Origin: Haloferacaceae archaeon B1-Br10_E2g22
GTDB lineage: Archaea; Halobacteriota; Halobacteria; Halobacteriales; Haloferacaceae
Assembly (NCBI GenBank): GCA_001563795.1
Contig: LKML01000010.1
Coordinates: forward strand, 1 to 38,320
Direction: 5' to 3'
Length of the DNA: 38,320 nucleotides
Shown: positions 19,052 to 24,128 of the stretch, piece by piece
Layout: each line of letters begins with the position of its first letter
Position numbering within the stretch: position 1 is the first letter of the stretch
Program-made: the position numbers and the translations under genes
Notes under the pieces: model-generated
Databases searched by the model: none
What the model saw: only the letters and a program-made list of their open reading frames with translations
What the model was told of the DNA's origin: nothing

Positions 19052-19363
19052 ATGGTCGATCTACTGCCACTGTTCGGTCCAGTCGGACCGGAGATGCTCA
19101 TTATCCTGCTCGTGTTAGTGCTCTTGTTCGGTGCGAACAAGATCCCAAAACTCGCCCGCTCGACCGGCCAAGCAATGGGTGAGTTCAAAAAAGGCCGCGA
19201 AGAGATCGAAGAGGAACTCGAGGAAATCAGTGATCCGAGTACCGGCAGCACCGGCAGCTCTGGCAGTTCGACAAGCGACCCCGAACCAATCGTCGACGAA
19301 GACGACGAAGCCAAAACCACAGCTGAATCAGAAACCGAAGCTGAATCCGAAAACTGGTCGTAA
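19052..19363 (+). CDS. tatA: Sec-independent (Tat) translocase subunit TatA
   Basis: PLFGPVGPEMLIILLVLVLLFGANKIPKLARSTGQAMGEFKKGREEIEEELEE. Confidence 0.95.
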   Translation: MVDLLPLFGPVGPEMLIILLVLVLLFGANKIPKLARSTGQAMGEFKKGREEIEEELEEISDPSTGSTGSSGSSTSDPEPIVDEDDEAKTTAESETEAESENWS

Positions 19364-19399: not shown

Positions 19400-19472
19400 G
19401 GGCACGTGGCCTAGTGGACAAGGCGAGTGGTTCCTAACCGCTCGATCGTGGGTTCGAATCCCATCGTGCCCG
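19400..19472 (+). tRNA. tRNA-Arg (anticodon CCT)
   Basis: GGGCACG.TG.GCCTAGTGGACAAGGC.G.AGTGG-TTCCTAA-CCGCT.CGATC.GTGGG-TTCGAAT-CCCAT.CGTGCCC.G: full cloverleaf, anticodon CCT, no encoded CCA. Confidence 0.95.
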
Positions 19473-21372: not shown

Positions 21373-21749
21373 TAGCGGCCACCTCCGTAGACGACACGTC
21401 TGGCAACAATTACGGCCACAAAGCCAGTCAGATAGCTCGCTCCAATGTATCCCACCGCGACAGTAGGTTCGACGAGGATGATATCGAGAACGAACGTGCT
21501 GTAGGTCGTAAACGACGACAAAAACCCGGTGCCAAACACGAGCCTCGAGTTGTCGGCGATTGCCGGCTCGCGGAGCGAATCATACACGAGTACTCCGAGG
21601 GCGAAACTGCCAGCGACGTTAACGATAAACGTCCCCGAGAGGCCCCCTGCGAGTAAATCAATAAAGTACCGGAGGTTCGCGCCGGCAAAGCCGCCGACGG
21701 CGACCAATAAAATCGGCTCGAGCTGTGTGAGGAGTGGTCTACATTGCAT
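21372..21749 (-). CDS. crcB: CrcB/Fluc fluoride exporter subunit (second copy)
   Basis: VAVGGFAGANLRYFIDLLAGGLSGTFIVNVAGSFALGVLVYDS...FGTGFLSSFTTYSTFVLD; TAATG coupling with the downstream copy. Confidence 0.95.
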   Translation of the reverse strand: MQCRPLLTQLEPILLVAVGGFAGANLRYFIDLLAGGLSGTFIVNVAGSFALGVLVYDSLREPAIADNSRLVFGTGFLSSFTTYSTFVLDIILVEPTVAVGYIGASYLTGFVAVIVARRVVYGGGR

Positions 21750-21756
21750 GGATGAC

Positions 21757-21815
21757 GTATACAGGAGCCATCAGCCCGGTCGGCGGTTGGATCAGGCGAG
21801 CCCCATCGCCCGGTC
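21757..21815 (-). promoter_or_regulatory. Fluoride riboswitch (crcB motif)
   Basis: Minus strand ACCGGGCGATGGGGCTCGCCTGATCCAACCGCCGACCGGGCTGATGGCTCCTGTATAC. P1 CGGGCG/CGCCTG; AACCGCC...GGCTGATGGCTCCT core; pseudoknot GGGGCT with GGCTCC (two G-U). Eight nt upstream of the crcB ATG at 21749. Confidence 0.88.
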
Positions 21816-22062
21816 GCACAGCGGCGACAGTCTGTTTGATCAGCAGCATGCCGACGTTCTAAGGGTTTTCATCCGTTCGACCAGCATGTCAACGGTGATA
21901 AATCACGTAGTACACGCCTCTAAACCCGGAGACTCGCTCCGAGACGCTTATTTTTCCGTACCACTGAGTAGGAGTATACAATGGGTTGGCGTGACCAACC
22001 CACCGATCGACTACACGACCTGTGAGAAAGCTGATCTGTATCAACCCACACCCTACCTATCC

Positions 22063-22731
22063 GTGATTCCACTATACCACGATTTTAGCGACGAGACGGT
22101 GTTAGTCTTCGGCGGCGGTAGCGTCGGCGCTCGCAAAGCCCGCCGCTTTGTCAGCCAAACGCGGGTCGTCGTCATCTCGCCGGCGTTCGACGACCAGTTT
22201 GACGACCCCGAACTGTCGGCTGTCGAGCCGATCCGCGCCGCCCCCTCGCCTGAGGCGGTCGCCGAGTGGATCGACCGGTTCGAACCCGCGTTAGTCGTTG
22301 CTGCAACCGACAACACCGAACTCAATGCAGCCCTCGAGCAGGCTGCCAGCGACCGATCGATCCTCATCAACCGTACCGATCAATCTGGCGAGCGTGCTGT
22401 CGGCAGCGTCGTGGTACCGGCGACCGTCCAGGATGGCCCCGTTTCGGTGGCAGTCTCGACTGGCGCGAAGAGTCCGGCACTTTCGCGGTATCTCCGCCAG
22501 CAGATCGAACGCGAGATTGAACATGCCGGTGAGATGGCCGAACTGACTGCTGAGCTGCGATCGGAGCTACAATCCACCGATCGTTCGCCAGCCAATCGCC
22601 GTGCAGCAGTCCGATCAGTTGTCCGTTCGCCAGACGTTTGGAAGGCTTTACATACGGGTGCTACAAAGGCCTCAAAAGAGGCAGAACGCCTAATGGCACT
22701 CGAAGTAGACGACATGGATGGTGATCGCTGA
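22063..22731 (+). CDS. Precorrin-2 dehydrogenase / siroheme synthase N-terminal (Met8/CysG-N-like)
   Basis: (GTG)IPLYHDFSDETVLVFGGGSVGARKARRFVSQTRVVVISPAFDDQF...VVAATDNTELNAALEQAASDRSILINRTD. Start GTG 22063 inferred by family; the supplied ORF starts far upstream. Confidence 0.9.
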   Translation: MIPLYHDFSDETVLVFGGGSVGARKARRFVSQTRVVVISPAFDDQFDDPELSAVEPIRAAPSPEAVAEWIDRFEPALVVAATDNTELNAALEQAASDRSILINRTDQSGERAVGSVVVPATVQDGPVSVAVSTGAKSPALSRYLRQQIEREIEHAGEMAELTAELRSELQSTDRSPANRRAAVRSVVRSPDVWKALHTGATKASKEAERLMALEVDDMDGDR

Positions 22732-24128
22732 TGATGCAGATCGGTGTCATCACGGGACTCAGTGTCTCGCATACAACTGCGAGTGTCGATGAGATCGAAC
22801 TCGCGAGTTGCGAGACCGTTGACGACCGCGTCAGCGAGTTGCTGACAAAGCCGGGCGTCTCCGAAGCGTTTGCGCTCCAGACCTGCAATCGTTCGGAGGC
22901 CTATGTCGTCACCGACCGCGCCGACCAGGGGCGGGCCGCACTCACCGATATCGTCACTGATGTCCGCGAGGGTGCGGTCGAACACATGGATCACGAGGCG
23001 AGCCTGCGGCATCTTATGCGGGTGGCCGCGGGCCTCGAGTCGCTCGTACTCGGCGAAGACCAGATCATCGGGCAGTTCAAAACTGCCGTCGAGGCCTCAC
23101 GGTCGGCCGGCGGTATCGGCCCGCTGTTAGAAGATGCGATTATGAAGGCGGTTCACGTCGGCGAGCGTGCCCGCACCGAAACAGAAATTAACGAGGGCGT
23201 GGTCTCGCTGGGCTCAGCAGCCGTCGAACTTGCCAGCCAAGAGACCGACCTCGAGGGAGCGACCGCACTGGTCGTCGGTGCCGGCGAAATGGGTTCGCTG
23301 GCGGCCAAATCACTTGTGTCCGCCGGTGTTGATCGCATCTTGGTCGCCAACCGGACGATCCCACATGCGACCCATATCGCCGAGACAATCGATGTCGAGG
23401 CGACAGCTATCGGGCTGGATGCGGCACCGGCCGCAGCCGAAACTGCCGCGGTAGTCATTGCCGCGACCGGCAGCCCCGAGTACGTCCTCGAGACCGATGC
23501 GCTCGCTGCGGTCGGCGAGACGATCTGTATCGATCTTGCCCAGCCACGGGATATCGATCCCGCGGCCGCCGACGTCGACGGCGTTGCGGTCTACGATATC
23601 GATGCCTTAGAGTCAGTTACCGAGTCGACCCACCGCCGACGCGAGGCCGCCGCTCGAGCCGTCGAGGCGATGATCGACGAAGAGTTCGACCGCCTGACGG
23701 CCCTTTTTAAACGCAAACGCGCAGACGAGGCGATTAGCTCGATGTACGAGAGCGCCGAGCGGGTCAAAAACCGCGAGGTAGCCACCGCCTTCGCCAAACT
23801 CGATGCTCGCGGCGAACTTACCGACGACCAGCGAGAGGTTATCGAGTCGTTGGCCGACTCGTTGGTGAGTCAGTTGCTTTCAGCACCGACCAAGAGTCTG
23901 CGCGATGCGGCCGCCGAAGACGACTGGACGACGATTCAGACCGCCATGCAGCTTTTCAACCCGGAGTTCGGCGGCGAGCTGCCGTCAAACACTGACTCGA
24001 GTGGATCTACCGACCGTACCCCGTCCGATTCGGCTGGACGCCCCAAAGACCGCTCAGACGAACTGCCGGATGGCGTCTCTCACGATGAACTCCCGGCGGA
24101 TGTACTCGAGCAGCTCTCGAGTGAGTAA
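22731..24128 (+). CDS. hemA: Glutamyl-tRNA reductase
   Basis: LQTCNRSEAYVV; RHLMRVAAGLESLVLGEDQIIGQFKTA; LVVGAGEMGSLAAKSLVSAGVDRILVANRT; QPRDIDP. Start 22731 or 22734. Confidence 0.97.
   Translation: MMQIGVITGLSVSHTTASVDEIELASCETVDDRVSELLTKPGVSEAFALQTCNRSEAYVVTDRADQGRAALTDIVTDVREGAVEHMDHEASLRHLMRVAAGLESLVLGEDQIIGQFKTAVEASRSAGGIGPLLEDAIMKAVHVGERARTETEINEGVVSLGSAAVELASQETDLEGATALVVGAGEMGSLAAKSLVSAGVDRILVANRTIPHATHIAETIDVEATAIGLDAAPAAAETAAVVIAATGSPEYVLETDALAAVGETICIDLAQPRDIDPAAADVDGVAVYDIDALESVTESTHRRREAAARAVEAMIDEEFDRLTALFKRKRADEAISSMYESAERVKNREVATAFAKLDARGELTDDQREVIESLADSLVSQLLSAPTKSLRDAAAEDDWTTIQTAMQLFNPEFGGELPSNTDSSGSTDRTPSDSAGRPKDRSDELPDGVSHDELPADVLEQLSSE

Follow-up and report, generated by a model that had tools for sequence, protein, structure and literature searches.

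A fluoride riboswitch aptamer was identified in the 5′ leader of a crcB operon within a 38,320-nucleotide stretch of haloarchaeal DNA (hereafter the window). Comparison with related loci makes it probable that this RNA is a fluoride-responsive ON switch for translation of crcB1 and crcB2, one that masks the region next to the AUG and involves no Shine–Dalgarno (SD) sequence.

The first-pass annotation had read this site as a crcB-motif (fluoride) aptamer and had proposed a scan with the Rfam Fluoride model (RF01734) as its check. The scan (cmscan, Rfam 15) bore out that identity with a significant match at 21819–21755 on the minus strand (46.8 bits, E = 4.9e-10; gathering score, 34) that covers model positions 1–64 of 64. 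This is the single RF01734 match in the genome (whole-genome E = 7.1e-12), whose assembly is 84% complete. Both the P1 stem-loop and a pseudoknot with two wobbles, as predicted earlier, are present in the sequence, and P3 is present too (Table 1). Residues are numbered by what we take to be the Thermotoga petrophila scheme, with G1 at 21811 and U48 at 21763. The P1 loop contains the pseudoknot 5′ strand, GGGGCU (21804–21799, minus strand), and the six pairs of the pseudoknot include the wobbles G10·U45 and U13·G42. The window motif is a genuine RF01734 aptamer, which presumably binds fluoride.

Table 1. Features of the riboswitch–crcB locus (window coordinates)
Feature	Position	Strand	Basis or remark
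Fluoride riboswitch aptamer core, G1–U48	21763..21811	-	RF01734 match, homologues in class, pair covariation
P1 stem-loop, GGCG 21810–21807 / CGCC 21798–21795	21795..21810	-	Sequence; class pairing
P3 stem, GCC 21784–21782 / GGC 21776–21774	21774..21784	-	Sequence; class pairing
Pseudoknot 3′ strand, GGCUCC, partner 21804–21799	21764..21769	-	Sequence; class pairing
Proposed fluoride-free hairpin, GAUGGC 21772–21767 / GUCAUC 21756–21751	21751..21772	-	MFE fold of leader
13-nt spacer GUAUACGUCAUCC, U48 to crcB1 AUG	21750..21762	-	Without SD-like motif, without U-tract
crcB1, fluoride channel CrcB/Fluc, 125 aa	21372..21749	-	Pfam PF02537, E 6.6e-20
crcB2, second CrcB/Fluc subunit, 121 aa	21007..21372	-	Pfam PF02537, E 1.1e-22
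Candidate BRE/TATA-like GAAAACCCTTAGAA	21857..21870	-	Sequence; assignment in window uncertain

The aptamer is placed 13 nt ahead of crcB1, and the tandem crcB pair described earlier is confirmed by Pfam CRCB matches in both ORFs (E = 6.6e-20 and 1.1e-22); crcB2 also scores 92.6 bits to TIGR00494, against a cutoff of 80.45. The start of crcB2 overlaps the stop of crcB1 as TAATG, and among loci of the class the overlap is 4 nt in 37 and 1 nt in 11, an arrangement of start within stop region that is expected under coupled translation. The haloarchaeal host proposed from the letters also holds. The nearest named relatives of CrcB1 come from a Haloferacaceae MAG (L093; 75% identity) and Halohasta litorea (L094; 70%), with 79% identity across 81 residues to the Halohasta salina protein (L100), and the window is placed within Halohasta (class Halobacteria) or beside that genus. 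Divergently oriented at 22066–24128 (plus strand) are an ORF resembling the siroheme synthase N-terminal part (TIGR01470) and, after it, a gene that, on sequence impression, probably encodes glutamyl-tRNA reductase. A short ORF at 19052–19363 (plus strand), TatA-like on the same kind of impression, stands just before a tRNA gene (RF00005) at 19400–19472 (plus strand).

The crcB motif is widespread in bacteria and archaea and has been known since 2010 (PMC2864571). Haloarchaeal members are detectable with Rfam's own model, which matches 67 of the 394 genomes in the class (E ≤ 0.001; 35 of these exceed the gathering cutoff), so the presence of an aptamer is ordinary and not notable by itself. 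Two weak matches (L069, L070) resembled chance matches within coding sequence and were left out. Pairing was examined in 39 distinct haloarchaeal aptamers. P1, P3, and pseudoknot cells were 98.7% paired (P1, 99.4%; P3, 96.2%), against at most 62% in slid registers, and two-sided (compensatory) changes occurred at six aptamer pairs, in 39 two-sided cells. The pseudoknot, with two-sided changes at two pairs, was 100% paired. In two loci (L007 and L013), the aptamer looks intact but no intact crcB ORF follows it directly; in L007, what follows appears to be a broken crcB.

Because U48 lies at 21763 and the crcB1 ATG at 21749, the spacer is 13 nt long. The first-pass annotation, which set the 3′ end of the motif wider, had it ending about 8 nt before the ATG, a figure counted from that wider end. 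Spacing is similarly short elsewhere, at 8–20 nt in 79 of 82 riboswitch–crcB leaders (median 14). The window spacer contains no SD-like motif, and across the class SD-like tetramers appear in 5 of 53 collapsed leaders, which is the chance level (shuffling expectation 6.0 ± 2.2). By contrast, other members of the phylum (L173–L199), with the same aptamer and similarly short spacing, have an SD-like motif in 15 of 22 leaders (Fisher 6e-7). SD sequestration is therefore ruled out as a general haloarchaeal platform. In Haloferax volcanii, SD sequences are not used at 5′-UTRs (PMC3986360). In a Halococcus group (L014, L017, L021, L023, L028, and L164), GGAG stands opposite the CUCC pseudoknot strand, and from these sequences the genus may use SD sequestration instead.

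The suggestion of control at translation initiation, already made in the first-pass annotation, is now supported by comparison: the short spacing, the lack of SD and U-tract, and the complementarity near the AUG described below. An alternative is transcriptional control, in which RNA polymerase would terminate early without fluoride, by an intrinsic or a factor-driven route (e.g., aCPSF1/FttA acting on untranslated RNA), and would read through in its presence. This reading has precedent in the many bacterial fluoride riboswitches that work via terminators (PMC2864571), but between the window aptamer and the crcB1 ATG there is no terminator-like site on the minus strand, in line with the earlier view that an intrinsic terminator would not fit before the gene. 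Furthermore, stretches of five or more U are absent from all 82 leaders over the interval that begins at the aptamer end and extends 40 nt into the ORF, and a spacer of ~14 nt leaves little room. Given the missing U-tract, an intrinsic terminator (hairpin plus U-tract) in the leader is ruled out. Factor-dependent termination of untranslated RNA occurs in archaea and could come second, after a translational block. Overall, a transcriptional switch is considered unlikely.

The evidence for the preferred translational reading comes from the strand adjoining the start codon. Many leaders have (U)CAGCC right before the AUG, complementary to GGCUGA in the aptamer, and others pair G39–C44 in a shifted register. 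Cells of the GGCUGA:UCAGCC helix were 85% paired, versus 16–39% in slid registers. CAGC[C/T] adjoins the AUG in 26 of 52 switch leaders versus 4 of the remaining 70 crcB leaders; at least three of those four (L035, L072, and L082) do have a switch that the regex overlooked. Of 50 collapsed leaders, 43 gave a fold of aptamer tail plus spacer that was more stable than with the spacer shuffled (mean z −1.74; binomial 2e-7). Spacers also paired better with their own aptamers than when swapped between loci (p = 0.004). Locking the aptamer raised the openness of the start region (−8 to +3) from 0.44 to 0.64 in class leaders, a gain of 0.19 compared with 0.10 for shuffled spacers (Wilcoxon 7e-5); some leaders (L003, L012, L020, L022, and L040) showed no gain. 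Folding energies refer to 1 M NaCl without pseudoknots rather than to molar KCl. Near-identical leaders were collapsed, phylogenetic dependence remains, and the p-values for the platform are optimistic because the tests have sequences and phylogeny in common. One leader, L035 (G215), has a long insertion with a strong hairpin between the aptamer and the crcB1 AUG and keeps UCAGCC near the start codon.

Two-sided covariation in the GGCUGA:UCAGCC helix was nearly absent and did not exceed that in shuffles, as would be expected if ligand binding fixes the aptamer strand. RNAalifold found no consensus structure in the mixed-register platform alignment. The hairpins of L018 and L045 (GAUGAC/GUCAUC vs. 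GACGAC/GUCGUC) look compensatory, a pair that is only suggestive because the MFE fold of L018 favors another register. Such minimal covariation, together with the weak complementarity in the window's own clade, would also fit a bound aptamer that acts near the AUG sterically or through RNA stability, with the complementarity incidental and reflecting initiation context or an unrelated signal; CAGCC-AUG, for example, could reflect an initiation-context preference. The rarity of CAGC[C/T]-AUG in switch-less crcB leaders speaks against this, and the swap and accessibility tests favor a link to the aptamer; this reading is judged quite unlikely.

At the window locus, the proposed AUG-occluding hairpin stops 1 nt short of the AUG and is incompatible with A40, U41, and the pseudoknot pairs. 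Openness rose from 0.43 to 0.61 on aptamer locking (p 0.12 alone), and the hairpin energy was not better than that of spacer shuffles (z −0.6, p 0.21). The window-type tail gave −7.28 with spacers of its own clade and a stronger −10.28 with those of other clades. Since the window's own hairpin is not significant (p 0.10–0.21), the mechanism at this locus leans on evidence from the class.

Upstream of the aptamers, an AT-rich peak at −34 to −30 (0.65 vs. 0.42 overall; 0 of 2,000 permutations by shifts reached as high a value) suggests a TATA box and, for the class, a transcription start only a few nucleotides ahead of P1. The window is atypical for the class: its promoter candidates on the minus strand are ATCAAA (21840–21835), the closer of the two to the class-wide position, and TTAGAA (21862–21857). 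It is highly improbable that the aptamer is a relic kept by descent, untranscribed or nonfunctional in this genome: the window lacks an evident TATA box where the class-wide peak falls and the assembly is incomplete, but the core residues and pseudoknot pairs are all intact, the score is well over the cutoff, and the aptamer is conserved across the class.

Taken together, these comparisons suggest the following model of translational control, in which we infer ligand binding, the switching direction, the level of control, and crcB1–crcB2 coupling. The transcription start would lie ahead of the aptamer by a few to ~25 nt. When fluoride is absent, the aptamer's 3′ half (G39–C44 in the window; GGCUGA in many relatives) would pair with the strand just 5′ of the crcB1 AUG, leaving the start codon of this SD-less leader inaccessible. 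The hairpin and the fluoride-bound fold are predicted to be mutually exclusive because they use the same strand (A40, U41, and pseudoknot residues 42–44; in relatives also the 3′ strand of P3), and fluoride should therefore free the AUG-proximal strand. Fluoride together with Mg2+ would let P3, A40–U48, and the pseudoknot form, and crcB1 would be translated. Translation of crcB2 would follow by termination–reinitiation at TAATG, so that both CrcB-family proteins are made. A further level of control might come from factor-dependent termination on untranslated RNA.

One haloarchaeal family (f4, presumably Natrialbaceae) has a variant aptamer. Matches at E ≤ 0.01 were found in 54 of its 125 genomes, only 8 of these 54 above the gathering cutoff. 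Nearly all loci retrieved from it have CUGACGGUCCCU, a U41C change, many have inserts in P3 that reach tens of nucleotides, and most score below the Rfam gathering score; they make up most of L034–L068 and L071–L076 (e.g., L062 and L059), with the pseudoknot intact. As the pseudoknot was 100% paired with these variants included, the pairing test indicates that they are still folded aptamers. C41 also occurs in L045, from another family. A second fluoride aptamer, ~415 bp farther upstream than the one before crcB, was observed in L006 (~1094–1150) and L142 (~1991–2045; Halogeometricum pallidum). It precedes an ORF of ~68–72 aa that resembles a small membrane protein, returned no match in a Pfam search, and has an SD-like GGUGGAGGU ahead of its ATG.

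Relative to RF01734 as a class, P1, P3, the pseudoknot, the core letters, and the class of downstream gene are alike and ON logic is expected, whereas the haloarchaeal leader is short, SD-less, and U-tract-free with complementarity near the AUG, and the f4 family departs further by U41C and long P3 inserts. The aptamer belongs to a known class, and the platform seems to be a lineage variant. An archaeal parallel is the switch of Thermococcus kodakarensis, the sole natural riboswitch from archaea that a 2021 report (PMC8241225) lists as experimentally determined. As described there, from Speed et al. 2018, it too is fluoride-responsive and thought to act on translation; its host, unlike the window organism, is a hyperthermophile, and the switch precedes TK0513 instead of crcB itself (PMC4247193). 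A synthetic switch, theophylline riboswitch E, is functional in H. volcanii, more so at high salt, and is thought to act by masking the start codon (PMC8241225). As in the present proposal, the ligand opens a mask over the start region, and the host is a haloarchaeon living at high salt; the synthetic switch differs in being engineered and in having a GGAGG SD adjoining the AUG, where the window leader has no SD. Within open-access text, no study of a haloarchaeal fluoride riboswitch was found, nor any account of an SD-less AUG-proximal platform or of the U41C family variant.

Haloarchaeal initiation largely dispenses with SD pairing. There is an even chance that haloarchaea have rebuilt the expression platform to suit SD-independent initiation, the ligand-binding strand of the aptamer pairing with the leader that abuts the AUG, giving a natural class of riboswitches that controls start-codon access in a lineage with no reliance on SD pairing, the C41 of one family being suited to the alternative pairing. 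If so, these leaders would offer a clean system for asking how haloarchaeal ribosomes locate start codons on leadered mRNAs, a test case for an anion-binding RNA working at molar salt, and, for H. volcanii, a compact tool inducible by fluoride.
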